Source: Dethiobacter sp.
Lineage (GTDB): Bacteria > Bacillota > Dethiobacteria > Dethiobacterales > Dethiobacteraceae
Reading direction: 5' to 3'
Assembly (NCBI GenBank): GCA_020725465.1
Contig: DYEY01000059.1
Coordinates: 1 to 64,000, forward strand
Length of the DNA stretch: 64,000 nt
A model generated the notes under the pieces. The model saw only the letters and a program-made list of their open reading frames with translations, searched no databases and was not told the origin of the DNA. Position numbers and translations under genes: made by a program. Of the stretch, positions 16,036 through 57,592 are shown piece by piece. Position 1 is the first letter of the stretch. Each line of letters opens with the position of its first letter.

Positions 16036-16656
16036 TTGCTTCCCAACAACATGCTGTACCGCATACCCGCGCTGCTGATAGCGCTGACCTTTCACGAGCT
16101 GGCCCACGGCTGGGTGGCTTACCGTCTTGGCGATCCCACCGCCAAAAATCACGGCCGTCTCACGCTGAACCCCCTGGCCCACCTGGACCCGCTTGGCACC
16201 CTGGCCATGCTCCTGGTGGGTTTTGGCTGGGCCAGGCCGGTACCGGTCAATCCCTTTTACCTGAAAGGAGACCGGTACCGGGGCATGTTCCTGGTGGGCC
16301 TGGCCGGCCCCCTGACCAATTTCCTGCTGGCTTTTGCCTTTCTGTATATATTGGCGGCCTTCCCTTCCCTGCTGGCGGTAAGGCACCTGCCCCAGATTCT
16401 GTACACTACTTTTGTGATTAATATTTACCTGGGCGTTTTCAACCTGCTGCCCATCCCCCCTCTGGACGGTTCCCGGGTGCTGTTCTATTTCCTCACTCCC
16501 CGGGCCAGGTACGCCTACAGCCGGTGGGAACAGTACGGGCCCCTGGTGCTGATGCTCCTGATTTTCCTGCCTTTTGGTTTTTTGCAGGGCATCCTGATAC
16601 CGCTGGCCAATGTGGTTGCCGGATTCATCACCACCCTGGTCAGCCTGCTGACCTGA
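16036..16656 (+). CDS. Site-2 protease-like M50 family metalloprotease
   Basis: Integral membrane protein of 206 residues with the zinc motif HELAH near residue 20 and the third-ligand motif [11 protein letters not shown] near residue 142, typical of group III site-2 proteases. Five to six hydrophobic segments are visible. Translation starts at TTG 16036 with AAGGAGA at 16021-16027; ATG 16051 is possible. It begins directly after the stop of the nucleotidyltransferase gene. The substrate is unknown. In Firmicutes this gene commonly sits upstream of trpS and scpAB, as here. Confidence 0.88.
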
Positions 16657-25329: not shown

Positions 25330-26067
25330 TTGAGGCTGCACAAGTTTCTTGCAGCGGCGGGCGTCGCTTCCAGGCGCGCCGCCGAAAAGATGATCAGGCA
25401 GGGGCGGGTCAAGGTCAACGGTGAGACGGTGACCGGCATGGGGGTGGCCATAGACCCGGCCGCCGACCAGGTGCTGGTAGACGGCAAAAAGGTGGCGCTG
25501 CCGGCGCCGGACCGGGAGTATATTCTCCTGTACAAGCCAGCCGGCTTTGTCACCACCATGTCAGACCCGTACGGGCGGCCCACGGTGCGCGATCTGGTGA
25601 GGGACGCCGGCGTGCGCGTTTTTCCGGTGGGCCGGCTGGACATGGATACCAGCGGCCTGCTGCTTCTGACCAACGACGGAGAGCTGGCCAACCGCCTGGC
25701 TCATCCTTCTTACGGCGTGGAGAAGGAATACCTGGCGCGGGTAAAGGGGCTCCCTTCACCGGACGTTTTAAAAAGGCTGGAGGGGGGAGTGGAGCTGGAG
25801 GACGGGCGGACAGCGCCGGCCCGGGTGCGCCTGGTAAAAGGCGGCCGGCAAAACAGTGTTCTTTCCCTCACCATCCACGAAGGGCGCAACCGCCAGGTGC
25901 GGCGGATGCTCAAGGCGGTGGGCCACCCGGTAACGGCTTTAAAGAGGGTGCGCTACGGCCCGCTGACCCTCTCCGGGCTGGCGGAAGGGGAGTGGCGGCG
26001 GCTTAGCCGGGACGAGGTGGCGGAGCTGTCACGGCCTGCCGGCGGAGACGACGGACGAAAGCGGTAA
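25330..26067 (+). CDS. rluB: 23S rRNA pseudouridine synthase, RluB/RsuA family
   Basis: RNA-modifying enzyme of 245 residues. The S4 domain (about 1-60) opens MRLHKFLAAAGVASRRAAE; the catalytic loop is GRLDMDTSGLLLLTNDG with the nucleophile Asp; HEGRNRQVRRML is the C-terminal RNA-binding motif. It starts at TTG 25330 behind GCGGGAGG. Genomic context near scpAB-dacB-spmAB is the normal place of rluB in Firmicutes and supports RluB over RsuA or RluF. Confidence 0.92.
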   Translation: MRLHKFLAAAGVASRRAAEKMIRQGRVKVNGETVTGMGVAIDPAADQVLVDGKKVALPAPDREYILLYKPAGFVTTMSDPYGRPTVRDLVRDAGVRVFPVGRLDMDTSGLLLLTNDGELANRLAHPSYGVEKEYLARVKGLPSPDVLKRLEGGVELEDGRTAPARVRLVKGGRQNSVLSLTIHEGRNRQVRRMLKAVGHPVTALKRVRYGPLTLSGLAEGEWRRLSRDEVAELSRPAGGDDGRKR

Positions 26068-26098: not shown

Positions 26099-26109
26099 GT
26101 AAACAGTTT

Positions 26110-26360
26110 CATACAAGGTACGGGTGCCCAGTAAGGGGTAAAAGGGAATCAGGTGTAAAGCCTGAGCGGTCCCGCCACTGTAACCGGGAATTGAGCCGTC
26201 AGAGAAGCCACTCCTCCGGGGGGAAGGCCGCGGCGAGATGATGACCGGGAGCCAGGAAACCTGCCCGTGGCTTTATGTGCTTTGCCCTCGAGTGAAGGGA
26301 ATGTGCGTGTTATGTACTTTCTCGGGCTCCGGGCGCGGGATTTTTTATTTTTCCTGAAGC
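26110..26360 (+). promoter_or_regulatory. Cobalamin riboswitch upstream of the B12 importer
   Basis: The B12 box GAGCCAGGAAACCTGCC lies at 26249-26265, and the upstream conserved core CCCGCCACTGTAACCGGG at about 26170-26187. The intervening arms are GC-rich and self-complementary. Downstream, GCCCTCGAG (26284-26292) can pair with CTCGGGC (26331-26337), followed by a GC-rich stretch and a T-rich run (26341-26352). This fits a transcription-terminating expression platform ahead of btuF. When coenzyme B12 is bound, importer expression should fall. The region is the whole 305-nt gap between rluB and btuF. Confidence 0.9.
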
Positions 26361-30958: not shown

Positions 30959-30987
30959 TTGTATATACAGAAAAAGAGTGCTATCAT
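30959..30987 (+). promoter_or_regulatory. Promoter of the cobalamin biosynthesis operon
   Basis: TTGTAT (30959-30964), 17-nt spacer, TATCAT (30982-30987) in an AT-rich stretch. The start would fall about 15-20 nt before the second cobalamin aptamer. Confidence 0.5.
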
Positions 30988-31007
30988 ATTATTAAATAAA
31001 ATATTTG

Positions 31008-31235
31008 CTTCAGGTGTCCTGTTGGAATTAAAAGGGAAAGCGGTGAAAATCCGCTGTAGCCCCCGCTACTGTGAGTAGGGATGCACCGGCAACTGCCACT
31101 GGGAAACCGGGAAGGCGCCGGCTGCAGGTGAACTACAAGCCAGGAGACCTGCCTGGAGCGGTTTACTGTCCTTCGGAGGGAAGGAGCCGGACATGTCCTG
31201 TCATACCCCGTTCCCCTGGAGCGGGGTATTCTGTT
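31008..31235 (+). promoter_or_regulatory. Cobalamin riboswitch upstream of cbiM
   Basis: The full B12 box AAGCCAGGAGACCTGCC lies at 31137-31153, and the upstream core CCCGCTACTGTGAGTAGGGA at about 31062-31081, in aptamer order. A terminator-like hairpin follows at 31203-31229, and then the cbiM ribosome site. It should switch off the whole cbi/cob operon, including the cobalt importer and hemA, when adenosylcobalamin is plentiful. Confidence 0.93.
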
Positions 31236-51050: not shown

Positions 51051-51080
51051 TTGGACAAACCGGAAATTATAAGATAAAAT
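51051..51080 (+). promoter_or_regulatory. Probable promoter after the cobalamin operon
   Basis: TTGGAC (51051-51056), 18-nt spacer, TAAAAT (51075-51080), upstream of the unknown gene at 51109. Confidence 0.45.
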
Positions 51081-51108
51081 GCCAGATATTCTGCCTGGAG
51101 GGGAGAGT

Positions 51109-51606
51109 ATGCTAAGGCCCGGGTTTGAAAAGATAACTCCGGACGAGATTAAGCCGCAGGAGGAAAAGGCGGCTGGCACCAACCACCGTATCAGTGCCAG
51201 GGTACGTTTCGACTACCGCGGCCGGCCGCGGCCGGCACGCTTCTTTTTCGGAGGCAAGAGCACCGGGGAGGCTGCCACCGAGCTGCGCCAGCAGCAGGCC
51301 GGGTTGTGGCGCAATATCGCCATCCAGGGTATAACCGTGCATAACATCGAGATGGGTGAGGTTTATACGGTGGTGGATGAAGACGCTGACGAAGAAGTGG
51401 CCTTCGCCCCCATGGAGCTGGACGTGACCGCTGATTGTCTTGACGTGCTGATCCGCCTGGCGGTGCGCGAGGAGTTCCGCCGCATCCAGATCAGGGAACC
51501 GGAGAGCATGGTGATCCCCCGGCAGGACATGGAGAGGATATTCTTCCAGGTCCACGAGCAGATGAAAACCCAAATATCGCTCAAAGCCAGGAAGTACCAG
51601 GACTAG
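51109..51606 (+). CDS. Conserved-looking protein of unknown function
   Basis: Soluble protein of 165 residues, not recognised. It begins MLRPGFEKITPDEIKPQEEK at ATG 51109 behind GGAGGGGAGAG; the frame upstream to 51079 has no ribosome site. It is mixed alpha/beta with strand-rich middle (GVYTVVDEDADEE region) and a long C-terminal amphipathic helix (MERIFFQVHEQMKTQISLKA). There are no signal peptide, helices or clear metal motif. It has its own promoter and terminator, so it is a single-gene unit. Confidence 0.7.
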   Translation: MLRPGFEKITPDEIKPQEEKAAGTNHRISARVRFDYRGRPRPARFFFGGKSTGEAATELRQQQAGLWRNIAIQGITVHNIEMGEVYTVVDEDADEEVAFAPMELDVTADCLDVLIRLAVREEFRRIQIREPESMVIPRQDMERIFFQVHEQMKTQISLKARKYQD

Positions 51607-51607
51607 C

Positions 51608-51630
51608 AAAACGGCTGCGGCCGTTTTTTT
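51608..51630 (+). terminator. Intrinsic terminator after the unknown gene
   Basis: AAAACGGC (51608-51615) / GCCGTTTT (51620-51627) with loop TGCG, continuing into a seven-T tract. Confidence 0.85.
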
Positions 51631-51649
51631 GTCAGAGGGAGGTGGAAAA

Positions 51650-52546
51650 ATGCGCTATCCGGACCTGGCGGAAAGCGGGGAGCTGCAAAAAAGGGCGGAG
51701 ACGGCGCTTGGGCTGCTGGCGAAATGCTCGGTTTGTCCCCAGGCCTGCGGCGTGGACCGCCGGTCGGGTGAACGGGGCCGCTGCCGTGCCGGGGCTTTGG
51801 CCAAGGTGTCCAGCTTCGGCCCGCACTTCGGTGAAGAGCCGCCGCTGGTGGGTCACGGCGGGTCGGGGACCGTCTTTTTTGCTTACTGTAACCTGCGCTG
51901 TGTTTTCTGCCAGAATTACGACATTTCGCACCTTGGTTACGGCGAAGAGCTGACAGCGGAGGAGCTGGCCCGGGTCATGATGGCCCTGCAGCAGCAGGGT
52001 TGCGAAAACATCAATTTTGTCACCCCCACCCACTATGTGCCTCAGATACTGGAAGCATTGCCCATCGCCGTGCGCCTGGGGCTTACCCTGCCCCTGGTTT
52101 ACAACTGCGGCAGCTACGAGTGCGAAGACACCCTGCGCCTGCTGGACAAAGTAGTGGACATCTACCTGCCGGACACCAAGTACGCTGACGAAGAAACCGC
52201 CAGGAAGTATTCCGGTATATCCGGTTACCCGGAGCAAATGTTCCGGTCGCTTAAAGAAATGCACCGGCAGGTGGGAGACCTGGTGACGGACCGGCGGGGG
52301 GTGGCGGTGCGCGGACTGATGGTGCGCCACCTGGTGCTGCCCGGCGGCCTGGCGGGGACGGAAGAAGTCATGCGCTTTATCGCTACGGAACTTTCACCGC
52401 ATACCTACGTCAACCTGATGGACCAGTACCGGCCCGCGTTCCGCGCCGCCGCTTATCCGGAAATAAACCGGCGGCTGACCAGGGCCGAGCTTGCCGAAGC
52501 CCGGGCGATAGCGTCAAAATTCGGCCTTACCCGGGTGGAAAGCTGA
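51650..52546 (+). CDS. Radical SAM protein, PflX/PflA-like
   Basis: Radical SAM enzyme of 298 residues. The CxxxCxxC cluster is in YCNLRCVFCQNYD near residue 85, preceded by an N-terminal cysteine motif CSVCPQACGVDRRSGERGRC that may hold another cluster. FVTPTHYVPQILEAL and VDIYLPDTKYADE fit the PflX family (COG1313), whose substrate is unknown. The ATG at 51650 follows GGGAGGTGG. No glycyl-radical enzyme is adjacent. The next 30 nt show no gene; a structured RNA candidate begins at 52581. Confidence 0.87.
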   Translation: MRYPDLAESGELQKRAETALGLLAKCSVCPQACGVDRRSGERGRCRAGALAKVSSFGPHFGEEPPLVGHGGSGTVFFAYCNLRCVFCQNYDISHLGYGEELTAEELARVMMALQQQGCENINFVTPTHYVPQILEALPIAVRLGLTLPLVYNCGSYECEDTLRLLDKVVDIYLPDTKYADEETARKYSGISGYPEQMFRSLKEMHRQVGDLVTDRRGVAVRGLMVRHLVLPGGLAGTEEVMRFIATELSPHTYVNLMDQYRPAFRAAAYPEINRRLTRAELAEARAIASKFGLTRVES

Positions 52547-52580
52547 ACCGGTTAATAACGAAAAAAATTTTTATATAGTG

Positions 52581-52757
52581 AAAATCTGTATACCGGCCTC
52601 CAAAGGCAGCAGCCTGCATTTGCCAAGGGAGTAAAACGACCTCTAAAACACCGGTTTTTGCTCCTTACCCGCAGGTTCTTGCCGCGGAACATGCCGGAAA
52701 AAGCGGCCGGTACAGATTTTTAGCCGGCTCCGGGAACACAGCCCGGGGCTATTTTTG
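52581..52757 (+). ncRNA. Candidate structured RNA (6S-like elongated hairpin) with terminator
   Basis: The 316-nt gap 52547-52862 has no gene but contains a long imperfect hairpin. The closing helix pairs 52581-52590 with 52711-52720 (10 perfect pairs) and 52593-52598 with 52705-52710 (CCGGCC/GGCCGG). Inside, GGCA and GCCTGC (52605-52617) pair with GCAGGT and TGCC (52671-52683) around a 3x3 loop, and GGAG and AAAAC (52628-52637) pair with GTTTT and CTCC (52654-52664). A 6x21-nt internal loop separates the first two helices. A terminator follows at once, and the next promoter starts after it, so this is not the leader of the downstream operon. A rod with a large central bubble recalls 6S RNA; no other class was recognised. 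Confidence 0.45.
52721..52757 (+). terminator. Intrinsic terminator of the RNA candidate
   Basis: TAGCC...CCGGG (52721-52734, with a 4-nt bulge) pairs with CCCGG and GGCTA (52742-52751), followed by TTTTTGT. Confidence 0.7.
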
Positions 52758-52759
52758 TA

Positions 52760-52788
52760 TTGACAATTCTGAAGTTTACCAATAACAT
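52760..52788 (+). promoter_or_regulatory. Promoter of the flavin/Fe-S complex operon
   Basis: Consensus TTGACA (52760-52765), 17-nt spacer, TAACAT (52783-52788). It starts 3 nt after the terminator above and gives a leader of about 70 nt before ATG 52863. Confidence 0.7.
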
Positions 52789-52862
52789 TTTGGGTATAAC
52801 GAGTATTTCGCCATGTGAAAGCTCTATCCGCTTTTTAAAGTGCAGAGAAAGGACGGGGAGGA

Positions 52863-54758
52863 ATGGCTTTGGAAACAAAAGAAGCCGTCAGGTCGGTGGA
52901 AGCCCTGGCCCGATTGGCCGGGTTCCACCGGCAGGCCAGACAAAAAGTCAAAACACGCATCCTGGTTTGTGCCGGTACGGGGTGCATCGTCAGCGGGTCG
53001 CTCCGGGTGATGAAGGAATTTGAGCGCCTCCTTGCTGACCGCGGTGCGGCTGCTCAGTTAGCCGGCGTAGCGGAAGTGGGAAAGGGAGTGGGGGTGGCCC
53101 AAAGCGGCTGCCACGGCTTCTGCCAGAAAGGTCCCCTGGTCCGCATCGACCCGTACGGCATCTTTTATACCGGTGTTCGACCTGAAGATGTGGCTGAAAT
53201 TGTTGATACCACCATAAACGGCGGAAAAACGGTGGAGAGGCTGCTTTACCGGGACAGGGATGGTCTCGCCTGCTGTAACCAGGAGGAGATACCTTTTTAT
53301 AACAGCCAGACCAGGATAGTTTTAAAAAACGCCGGGCTTATTGACCCGGAGGATATCGGGGATTACCTGGCGGCAGGCGGTTATACGGCCCTGGCCAAAG
53401 TTCTGACGGAAATGTCTCCCGCTGAAGTGACAGAAGCTGTCACCAGGGCCAACCTGCGCGGACGCGGCGGCGCCGGTTTTCCCACCGGCCTGAAATGGAA
53501 AGAAGCCTTCCATCAGAAGGCTTGGCCCAAATATATTGTCTGCAATGCTGACGAGGGCGACCCCGGGGCGTTTATGGACCGCTCTCTCCTGGAGAGCGAC
53601 CCGCATGCCGTGCTGGAGGGCATGATTATTGCGGGTTACGCGGTGGGCGCCAGGCATGGCCTGATCTATGTGCGTGCTGAATACCCGCTGGCGATGAAAA
53701 GAATTGCCATCGCCATCGAGCAGGCAAGGGAAACCGGGTTACTGGGAGAAGACATCATGGGGTCGGGCTTCGATTTTGACGCAGAAATCTTTGTGGGCGG
53801 CGGAGTCTTCATCTGTGGTGAGTCCACCGCCCTGATTTCCTCCCTGGAAGGCCAGGTCGGTGAACCCAGGCAAAAGCCTCCTCACCTGGCTGAACGCGGG
53901 TACCTGGGCAAGCCAACGGTGATAAACAACGTGGAGACACTGGCTAACGTTCCCGTTATTATCAATATTGGCGCACCTGCTTACGCAGCGATCGGCTCGG
54001 CGAAATCCGGCGGGACCAAAATTTTCTGCCTGACCGGCAAGGTAAACAATACCGGGCTGGTGGAGGTTCCCATCGGCGTGCCGCTGGCGGAGATAGTGCG
54101 GGGTATCGGTGGTGGTGTGCCGGATGGCAGAGCGCTGAAGGCGGTTCAGACCGGGGGGCCCTCCGGTGGCTGCCTGCCGGCGGAAATGCTGGATTTGCCC
54201 ACCGATTTTGAGGAGCTGTCCCAGGCGGGCTCCATGATGGGTTCCGGCGGCATGATAGTGATGGATGACACTACCTGCATGGTGGACGTGGCCAGATATT
54301 TCATCAACTTCCTGCGCGACGAGTCCTGCGGCAAGTGTTTTTCCTGCCGGGAGGGGATCCTGCGCATGAAGGAAATTGTGGATGACATCACCGCAGGAAG
54401 AGCGGGCGATGAAACGCTGGAACTCTTAAAAGAAACGGCGGAAATGGTGAAAAACGCTTCCATGTGCGGCCTGGGCCAGTCGGCGGGCAATCCGGTTCTT
54501 TCCACCATAAGGTACTTTGAAGACGAGTACCTGGCCCATATTCAGGATAAAAAGTGCCCGGCCGGCGTTTGCCGGAGCCTGATCAGCTTCACCATTGACG
54601 CGGACCTGTGCACCGGCTGTACCGCCTGCGCCGTGAAGTGTCCCACCAAAGCCATCAGCGGCGAGAAAAAGCAGGCGCACACCATCGACGCGGCTCTGTG
54701 CGACAGGTGCGGCATCTGCCTGGATACCTGCCGGTTTGACGCCGTGCGGAAAGGGTAG
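52863..54758 (+). CDS. NuoF/HydB-type NAD(H)-binding flavin Fe-S subunit
   Basis: Subunit of 631 residues with the HydB layout. An N-terminal thioredoxin-like 2Fe-2S domain (about 30-120) has CAGTGCIVSGS and SGCHGFCQKGP. The NuoF core has the FMN motif RGRGGAGFPTGLKW near residue 200, CNADEGDPGAFMDR (NAD site) and CGESTALISSLEGQ. The 4Fe-4S motif is ESCGKCFSCREG, with a distal Cys in SMCGLGQ. A C-terminal 2x4Fe-4S ferredoxin domain has CTGCTACAVKCP and CDRCGICLDTC. In HydABC and StnABC this subunit carries the bifurcating FMN and the NAD site. It is first of four genes; 8 nt precede the next. Confidence 0.92.
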   Translation: MALETKEAVRSVEALARLAGFHRQARQKVKTRILVCAGTGCIVSGSLRVMKEFERLLADRGAAAQLAGVAEVGKGVGVAQSGCHGFCQKGPLVRIDPYGIFYTGVRPEDVAEIVDTTINGGKTVERLLYRDRDGLACCNQEEIPFYNSQTRIVLKNAGLIDPEDIGDYLAAGGYTALAKVLTEMSPAEVTEAVTRANLRGRGGAGFPTGLKWKEAFHQKAWPKYIVCNADEGDPGAFMDRSLLESDPHAVLEGMIIAGYAVGARHGLIYVRAEYPLAMKRIAIAIEQARETGLLGEDIMGSGFDFDAEIFVGGGVFICGESTALISSLEGQVGEPRQKPPHLAERGYLGKPTVINNVETLANVPVIINIGAPAYAAIGSAKSGGTKIFCLTGKVNNTGLVEVPIGVPLAEIVRGIGGGVPDGRALKAVQTGGPSGGCLPAEMLDLPTDFEELSQAGSMMGSGGMIVMDDTTCMVDVARYFINFLRDESCGKCFSCREGILRMKEIVDDITAGRAGDETLELLKETAEMVKNASMCGLGQSAGNPVLSTIRYFEDEYLAHIQDKKCPAGVCRSLISFTIDADLCTGCTACAVKCPTKAISGEKKQAHTIDAALCDRCGICLDTCRFDAVRKG

Positions 54759-54766
54759 GTGGAGCA

Positions 54767-55465
54767 ATGGTAACCTTTGTGTTAAACGGGTTGGAAATAA
54801 GTGTGGAGAAAGGGACTACCATCCTGGAAGCGGCGAGGTTTTACGGTATCGGGATACCCACTCTCTGCTACAACGAGGCGCTAAGCCCATATGGCGCCTG
54901 TCGCCTCTGCCTGGTGGAAATCGGCGTGCCTCCCCGCTCCCGGCTGGTTACTTCCTGTACCTACGAGGCCACCGAAGGTCTGGTGGTACGGACCCACTCG
55001 GAGCGCGTGGTAAAGACCCGCCAAATGCTCATCGAGATGTACCTGGCCACCTGTCCCTCATCCAAGGTGATCCAGGATCTGGCGTCCAAACACCACGTGA
55101 CCCGGGTCCGCTTCCGGCAGAAGCAGGAAGAATGCATACTGTGCGGACTGTGTGTCCGGATGTGCGAAGAGCAGATGCAGGCCGGCGCCATCGGCTATAC
55201 CGGCCGGGGCGACAGCCGGCGTATCAGCACTTTCTTTGACAAAAAGAGCGAGGACTGCCGGTTCTGCGGTGGTTGCCAGTATATCTGCCCGGCCTGCCAG
55301 GCGCGTTGCCAGGGACCGCAGGAGAAAGAGGCGGTATGCAATGCCTGCCTCAACCTGGCGCCGCCGTGCCTTGAACATTTTGACCATGTGATGTGTTACA
55401 TGGATCCCTGCGTGGCCTGCGAGGAAAAAAGCGGGCGGGAACCCCGCAAAACCTGTTGCAAATAA
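54767..55465 (+). CDS. Short NuoG-like Fe-S subunit with Cys-rich tail
   Basis: Electron-wire subunit of 232 residues. A plant-type 2Fe-2S domain has Cys 34, 45, 48 and 64 (YGACRLCLVEIG). A ferredoxin region has CILCGLCVRMC (123-133) and CRFCGGCQYICPACQARC (164-181). The His-Cys3 cluster motif of NuoG/HydA is missing; the position reads LATCPSSKVIQ. The tail from 181 on holds nine further Cys, including C191/C194, C215/C218 and a terminal CC pair. There is no hydrogenase H-cluster domain and no GltD-like domain, so it is neither HydA nor StnC. It probably links the NuoF-type subunit to the GltB-like subunit. Confidence 0.88.
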   Translation: MVTFVLNGLEISVEKGTTILEAARFYGIGIPTLCYNEALSPYGACRLCLVEIGVPPRSRLVTSCTYEATEGLVVRTHSERVVKTRQMLIEMYLATCPSSKVIQDLASKHHVTRVRFRQKQEECILCGLCVRMCEEQMQAGAIGYTGRGDSRRISTFFDKKSEDCRFCGGCQYICPACQARCQGPQEKEAVCNACLNLAPPCLEHFDHVMCYMDPCVACEEKSGREPRKTCCK

Positions 55466-55503
55466 CTTATGAAATTTAACACTTATTTTGGGAGGGTGAA
55501 GCA

Positions 55504-57093
55504 ATGACTATTTCCAGGCTGAACGCGTCGGCGGCTACGTTGACCAAAAACAGGACCGAGGGTTCCATCAGCCCGTTCAGCGGTATGTGCGTGACCTGTG
55601 TGGATGGCTGCGTGGGGATGTGTGAAATAGGCAAATCGGCTTACAGGGGCCATGAGACCATTTATCCCCAGCCTTTCGGCATCATCACCACCGCTTCGGA
55701 AAAGAAATACCCGGTGGACTATTCCCACCTATCCATTATGGGTACCGCCGTGGGCGCGGTGGGTATTGAGGCCGACAGCGACAAAGCCATTTTCCCCAAC
55801 GTCCGGCTGGAAACCAGGATGGGAAGGGACGGGGGCATCAAACTGAAACTCCCCTTTGTTGTTCCCGGACTTGGCTCCACCAACGTGGCCAAGAACAACT
55901 GGGAAGGCCTGGCCATCGGCGCCGCCCTGACCGGCACCATTCTCACCATCGGTGAAAACGTGGCCGGCATGGACCCGGCCTCCCGCTTTGAAAACGGCCG
56001 GGTGGTGGATACCGAGGACCTGAAGTTTCGGGTTAAAACCTTCCAGGACTGGCAGGAAGACGGCTACGGCGCCATCGTGCTGCAGGCCAATGTGGAGGAT
56101 ACCCGCCTGGGCGTGCAGGAATACGCCATTGGGGAGCTGGGAGTGGAGGCGGTGGAGCTGAAATGGGGACAGGGAGCCAAAGATATCGGCGGCGAGGTGA
56201 AAATCAACGACCTGGCCAAGGCGCAACTTTTAAAATCCCGCGGTTACGTGGTGCTGCCCGACCCGGAGGACCCGGTGGTTGTGGATGCCTTCAGAAAGGG
56301 CGCCTTCAAAGAGTTTGAGCGCCACTCCCGCATCGGCATGGTGGAGCTGGAGTCGTTCCTGGCCCGGGTGGAGGAGCTGAGAAAAGCCGGTGCCAAATAC
56401 GTTACGCTTAAAACCGGCGCCTACCGGCCGGTGGACCTGGCCCGCGCCGTCAAGTTTGCTTCGCTGGCCAAAATCGACTACCTGACGGTGGACGGCGCCG
56501 GCGGCGGTACCGGTATGTCACCGTGGCGCATGATGAACGAATGGGGCGTGCCACCGGTGGAGCTCCATGCCCTGACCTGGCAGTACTGCCGGAAGTTGGC
56601 GGAAAAAGGAGAGTATGTCCCGGATATCGTCCTGGCCGGCGGGTTTACCCTGGAAGACCAGATCATGAAGGGACTGGCCCTGTGTGCCCCCTACGCCAAG
56701 GCTATCGGCATGGCCCGTTCGCCCCTGGCGGCGGTTATGGTGGGCAAGACCATTGGCAAGAAGCTGGCTGCGGGTAAGCTGCCCGTTTACGTGGAACGCT
56801 TCGGCAACAGCGTGGAAGACGTCTTTGTCACCGCGTCCGAACTGAAGGCCCGCCTGGGCGCCGACCGCTTCAAAGCAGTGCCTGCCGGGGCGCTTGGCAT
56901 GTACACTTACTACGAGCGCCTGGCCCAGGGCCTGCGGCAGCTGATGTGCGGCACCCGTAAGTTTGCCCTGGAATATATTGAAAGGACGGACATCTGTGCC
57001 CTGACCAGACAGGCCGCCGATGTAAGCGGCATACCTTTCGTAACCGAGCTGGACGCCGCCGAGGCCGAAGAAGTCCTGAATATGAGCATATAG
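55504..57093 (+). CDS. GltB-like FMN-binding protein with N-terminal 4-Cys motif
   Basis: Protein of 529 residues matching the FMN-binding barrel of glutamate synthase (archaeal-type GltB family). Barrel motifs are GTILTIGENVAGMDP, AKYVTLKTGAYRPVDLARAV, DYLTVDGAGGGTGMSPWRMM near residue 330 and PDIVLAGGFTLEDQIMKGL with AIGMARSPLAAVMVG. It lacks the N-terminal glutaminase domain (no catalytic Cys-1) and the C-x5-C-x4-C 3Fe-4S motif of bacterial GltB. It has instead C29, C32, C36, C40 (MCVTCVDGCVGMC), a likely 4Fe-4S site. The catalysed reaction is unknown: ammonia- or protein-dependent glutamate synthesis, or another FMN reaction. It follows the NuoG-like gene by 38 nt. Confidence 0.85.
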   Translation: MTISRLNASAATLTKNRTEGSISPFSGMCVTCVDGCVGMCEIGKSAYRGHETIYPQPFGIITTASEKKYPVDYSHLSIMGTAVGAVGIEADSDKAIFPNVRLETRMGRDGGIKLKLPFVVPGLGSTNVAKNNWEGLAIGAALTGTILTIGENVAGMDPASRFENGRVVDTEDLKFRVKTFQDWQEDGYGAIVLQANVEDTRLGVQEYAIGELGVEAVELKWGQGAKDIGGEVKINDLAKAQLLKSRGYVVLPDPEDPVVVDAFRKGAFKEFERHSRIGMVELESFLARVEELRKAGAKYVTLKTGAYRPVDLARAVKFASLAKIDYLTVDGAGGGTGMSPWRMMNEWGVPPVELHALTWQYCRKLAEKGEYVPDIVLAGGFTLEDQIMKGLALCAPYAKAIGMARSPLAAVMVGKTIGKKLAAGKLPVYVERFGNSVEDVFVTASELKARLGADRFKAVPAGALGMYTYYERLAQGLRQLMCGTRKFALEYIERTDICALTRQAADVSGIPFVTELDAAEAEEVLNMSI

Positions 57094-57109
57094 GCGGGGA
57101 GGCAAAGAG

Positions 57110-57592
57110 ATGGCTAGGAAACAGCCGGCAAAAGGGCCGTTTAACCTGGATTTGTCGTTGGAGCGGAACAAGGGGGCTTTAATTGCCATCCTCTACGATA
57201 TCCAGGAGCATTACCGCTACCTGCCGGAGGATGTGCTAAAGGAGCTGGCGCAAAAGATTGGCAAACCGCTGATCGAGATTTACCGCGTTGCCACCTTCTA
57301 CAAGCTGTTTTCCTTAAAGCAGCGTGGCCGGCACCAGCTTAAGGTATGTACCGGCACCGCCTGCCACGTGCGGGGCAGCGAGCGCCTGGTGGAGGAGATA
57401 TCCAAATCCCTTTGCGTCTGCCGCGGTGAGACTTCGGCGGACGGCGAGTACTCCCTGGATACCGTCAACTGCCTGGGCGCCTGCGCCCTGGGACCGCTGG
57501 TTGAAGTGGACGGAGAGTATCACGGCAACACCACGCCCCAAAGCCTGAAGACTATTTTAGAAAAACTGAAGTCAGGGGAAAATAAAGAGTAA
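57110..57592 (+). CDS. NuoE/HydC-type 2Fe-2S subunit
   Basis: Thioredoxin-like ferredoxin subunit of 160 residues with the 2Fe-2S ligands in KVCTGTACHVRG and VNCLGACALGP, and the N-terminal helical part YDIQEHYRYLPEDVLKELA. It begins 16 nt after the GltB-like gene. In complex I and HydABC it pairs with NuoF/HydB. Its place last, after the catalytic subunit, differs from the usual hydC-hydB-hydA order. Confidence 0.93.
   Translation: MARKQPAKGPFNLDLSLERNKGALIAILYDIQEHYRYLPEDVLKELAQKIGKPLIEIYRVATFYKLFSLKQRGRHQLKVCTGTACHVRGSERLVEEISKSLCVCRGETSADGEYSLDTVNCLGACALGPLVEVDGEYHGNTTPQSLKTILEKLKSGENKE

Follow-up and report, generated by a model that had tools for sequence, protein, structure and literature searches.

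A predicted, unusually stable hairpin between a radical SAM gene and a nuoF operon in Dethiobacter sp., a possible orphan small RNA

In a 64,000-nt stretch of Dethiobacter sp. DNA (hereafter the window), positions 52581-52757 form a predicted, unusually stable hairpin that lies between a radical SAM gene and a nuoF operon, which confirms the observation made from the letters. We give about an even chance to the reading that it may be an orphan small RNA of about 170 nt, transcribed on its own and restricted to the lineage (genus-level). The succession of promoter, rod, terminator and next promoter makes a separate RNA gene the simplest reading of the sequence evidence. The sequence-only reading had described the element as either an independent small RNA or a 3′ element of the radical SAM mRNA, which is fair as a description; an upstream promoter-like site that it had missed tips the choice toward an independent RNA. 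We infer transcription, the transcript ends and any function in trans as follows: transcription from a sigma-A-type promoter would begin where the closing helix has its foot and would end at the intrinsic terminator, and the RNA would fold as an imperfect but stable rod, with paired ends shielding it from nucleases. Its single-stranded parts, namely the apical loop, the internal loop at 52618-52625 and the A-rich strand at 52689-52702, could then act in trans through mRNA pairing or protein binding. The features are listed in Table 1.

Table 1. Features of the hairpin and its surroundings, by position in the window.
Feature	Position	Strand	Details
Radical SAM protein, upstream gene	51629-52546	+	PF04055, 48.6 bits
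Promoter-like site TTAATA-16-TATAGT	52552-52579	+	9/12 matches
Closing helix, 5′ arm	52581-52598	+	2-nt bulge at 52590-52591; pairing probability near 1 at most positions
Inner helix 1, 5′ arm	52605-52617	+	partner 52671-52683; one 1x1 loop
Apical hairpin	52626-52666	+	stem, loop around 52642-52652
Inner helix 1, 3′ arm	52671-52683	+	predicted fold
A-rich, mostly unpaired bubble strand, 3′ side	about 52689-52704	+	low pairing probability over most of 52689-52702
Closing helix, 3′ arm	about 52705-52720	+	predicted fold
Intrinsic terminator	52726-52757	+	9-bp stem (7 GC), 7-nt loop, ATTTTTG; hairpin 52726-52750
nuoF promoter TTGACA-17-TAACAT	52760-52788	+	drives NuoF/HoxU-like/GltS-domain/NuoE operon; hexamers kept in relative G011
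NuoF-type flavoprotein with ferredoxin domains, downstream gene	52863-54758	+	

The predicted fold has a body of about 138 nt and agrees with the architecture previously described from the letters, in which a 16-bp closing helix, two inner helices with internal loops and a large asymmetric bubble had been recognised. The closing helix joins 52581-52598 to 52705-52719 through approximately 16 bp interrupted by a single 2-nt bulge, the apical stem pairs 52626-52641 with 52653-52666 around one 2-nt bulge, and an 8x4 internal loop separates the two inner helices. The bubble is asymmetric in the predicted fold, with a short 5′ side (52602-52604, about 3 nt) against a long 3′ strand of about 16 nt.

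The minimum free energy of 52581-52757 is -72.5 kcal/mol, compared with a mean of -52.95 ± 4.4 for dinucleotide-shuffled sequences (z = -4.44), and none of the 200 shuffles folded as well. When 150-nt stretches were scanned for stability with 25 shuffles each, the hairpin ranked first among the 413 plus-strand stretches between 35 and 64 kb (z = -5.4; runner-up -3.8). For 0-35 kb the scan covered 1001 of 1826 jobs, among which two plus-strand stretches had slightly lower z than the hairpin, each of them within a long ORF (16036-16656 and 25330-26067). Because the hairpin is top-ranked at 35-64 kb and the two lower-scoring stretches among those covered at 0-35 kb fall in ORFs, the fold is unusual for local non-coding DNA. 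Pairing remained nearly unchanged when 52450-52860 was folded, and the closing helix alone re-paired when 200 nt of upstream flank were added. The minus strand of the hairpin also folds (-66.3), and no promoter-like or terminator-like site was found on that strand at the hairpin. No listed plus-strand ORF of at least 50 aa lies within it.

The promoter-like site upstream of the rod predicts a start at about 52584-52587, which coincides with the foot of the closing helix; as the promoter that an independent small RNA should possess, it is a modest match to the consensus in the right place. Sites of this quality number 33 on the plus strand of the 64 kb, or about one per 1.9 kb, and the 30 nt at 52552-52581 are 87% AT, a content found in just 0.03% of the 30-nt stretches of the window. 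The window also contains cobalamin riboswitches at 26105-26282 (107.7 bits) and 30995-31170 (127.3 bits), and a promoter-like site of like quality, TATACA-17-TATTAT (30964-30992), ends 2 nt ahead of the latter, as near to its 5′ end as the site described here is to the rod. Downstream, the intrinsic terminator noted from the letters does follow the rod directly and, at consensus level, provides the terminator of its own that an independent small RNA should have. The consensus promoter placed 3 nt past the terminator was likewise recovered, with TTGACA-17-TAACAT starting at 52760. Just past this nuoF promoter lies an operator-like palindrome, TTTCGCCATGTGAAA (52806-52820), with counterparts in like positions (TTTCACGATGTGAAA in the nearest orthologue, L151 of relative G011, and TTTCGCATCATGAAA in L152 of relative G003); it is possibly a regulator binding site for the NADH-oxidoreductase operon.

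Among the neighbouring genes, the radical SAM protein is related to PFL-activating and AmmeMemoRadiSam-type enzymes and scores under the curated cut-offs of those NCBIfam families. The downstream operon (52863-57592) encodes a NuoF-type flavoprotein, a HoxU/NuoG-N-like ferredoxin protein, a glutamate-synthase-domain protein (PF01645) and NuoE, which together suggest an NADH-linked electron-transfer complex; no obvious hydrogenase catalytic subunit was found in the operon. The gene at 51079-51606 encodes a 175-aa protein with no Pfam or NCBIfam match; it is conserved in relatives, where its neighbour is nuoF or the radical SAM gene.

The sequence-only reading had named a lack of covariation or conservation in related genomes, together with the lack of a transcript, as evidence against its proposal; conservation was not seen in 59 relatives, in 97 other genomes of the same class or in a 398-genome sample of the phylum. 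In the first of these sets (60 genomes, including its own), blastn of the hairpin returned only matches of 22-43 nt with E values of 1e-4 to 1e-2, which were rejected as homologues because they were not reproduced by a structure model (R1) built from the single hairpin sequence, whose non-self matches all had E values of 0.1 or worse. This model matched only the hairpin itself at E < 0.1 in 40 genomes and at E 0.05 in 98 genomes of the class (97 besides its own), and blastn of the 398-genome phylum sample likewise returned the hairpin alone. The model also gave no match in relatives near the orthologues of nuoF and of the radical SAM gene. The phage and plasmid collections gave no match, a viral scan with the neighbouring radical SAM protein as the query was also empty, and a search of the small-RNA literature on Pelotomaculum-like anaerobes yielded nothing useful. 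The hairpin is a single copy in its own genome. Since the nearest relatives compared stand at about 70% protein identity and none is a second member of the genus, these searches could overlook a small RNA that evolves fast.

The corresponding loci in relatives are organised differently. In G011, the orthologue of the 51079-51606 gene is the immediate upstream neighbour of nuoF (73% identical), and the locus has neither a radical SAM gene nor the hairpin; the nuoF promoter hexamers TTGACA and TAACAT are kept, with a terminator-like hairpin just ahead of them. What comes after the radical SAM gene differs too: in G009 it is an apparent orthologue of the 57652 flavoprotein, with neither the hairpin nor a nuoF operon between the two, and in G003 it is other genes. 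The G009 intergenic region (L121) 3′ of the radical SAM gene carries short repeats of the CCTGTCCC/GGGACAGG type, none of which occur at this place in the window. As these neighbouring regions are without the hairpin, its junction is particular to this genome among those looked at. A conserved class of structured RNA would be recognised from homologues with covarying pairs, and no homologue was found; the earlier suggestion of a new class is thus unsupported, as a single sequence offers no covariation by which to define one. We consider it improbable that the hairpin represents a working structured RNA of some kind not described before and confined to the genus, perhaps a protein-binding rod in energy-metabolism control beside the NuoEF-type operon.

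The chief rival to the small RNA reading assigns the hairpin to the radical SAM mRNA, as its 3′ UTR or transcription-end region: it would shield the 3′ end while the terminator insulates the nuoF promoter, with no separate RNA. We regard this as possible, though clearly the weaker reading. Every gene around the hairpin is on the same strand, the plus strand shows no terminator-like site other than this terminator from the radical SAM stop codon (52546) to nuoF, and the terminator-like hairpin of G011 indicates that an insulating terminator is normal at this place; against this, the stop codon is separated from the hairpin by a promoter-like site, and a 140-nt rod far exceeds the needs of a terminator. 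The functionless remnant of a mobile or palindromic element, or functionless hairpin DNA built by chance, would account for the lack of conservation wherever searched and for arms that form an inverted repeat, but we consider it unlikely, given that the hairpin is flanked exactly by a promoter-like site on one side and a terminator on the other and that its over-stability is rare in the window; a repeat or mobile element was rejected on the single copy and the absence of matching direct repeats at the hairpin ends. A hairpin with a terminator ahead of an operon could also serve the nuoF operon as a cis-acting leader (a riboswitch-like attenuator) or regulate the nuoF start site as an antisense RNA, and short stretches of the nuoF leader and start codon are indeed complementary to the two bubble strands (pairs I7 and I8). 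This is very improbable: the conserved promoter past the terminator makes the nuoF operon independent of read-through, and antisense control was dropped because nuoF ranked 41st of the 57 gene starts in the window as a pairing partner when duplex energy and accessibility were counted. No convincing target of the hairpin RNA was found.

The rod shape with a bubble had also been called 6S-like, and a divergent second 6S RNA, binding the RNA polymerase holoenzyme and templating pRNAs, would fit a rod that forms an independent unit; some bacteria have two 6S RNAs. The central bubble of 6S RNA is largely unpaired on both strands and mimics open promoter DNA, whereas that of the hairpin is predicted to open on one side only. 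Rfam searches of the hairpin returned no 6S match (RF00013), neither at the gathering threshold nor with E values of up to 10; the latter gave just two hits, SNORD42 (E 6.1) and mir-128 (E 7.1), both by chance. RF00013 finds 6S RNA in 58 of the 60 genomes searched, including a canonical copy on another contig of the same genome (G000:C53:61671-61848, 96.4 bits). On these grounds the 6S label is unsupported and a second 6S RNA, which no positive evidence favours and which we hold to be extremely improbable, was rejected. With a single sequence and the 6S role already filled in the genome, present evidence does not point to a new RNA class. If transcribed, the candidate small RNA would add one more orphan to a poorly studied anaerobic lineage and offer a clean promoter-rod-terminator case for testing; unless transcription and same-genus conservation are shown, the hairpin is ordinary in kind.

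Compared with known systems, the hairpin resembles 6S RNA (SsrS / BsrA), a rod of about 200 nt with a closing stem and an apical arm (PMC8876501), in being a putative stand-alone structured rod with closing stem, bubble and apical arm, but it is shorter, has no sequence or structure-model match to that family, and its bubble is almost closed on the 5′ side. Ms1 RNA of Actinobacteria likewise has a 6S shape that sequence searches can miss; it is conserved across genera in a group without 6S RNA (PMC9130861), whereas this genome has 6S RNA and the hairpin is without relatives. In its predicted organisation the candidate is like the orphan intergenic small RNAs of Bacillota, which combine their own promoter, a structured body, an intrinsic terminator and a restricted distribution.
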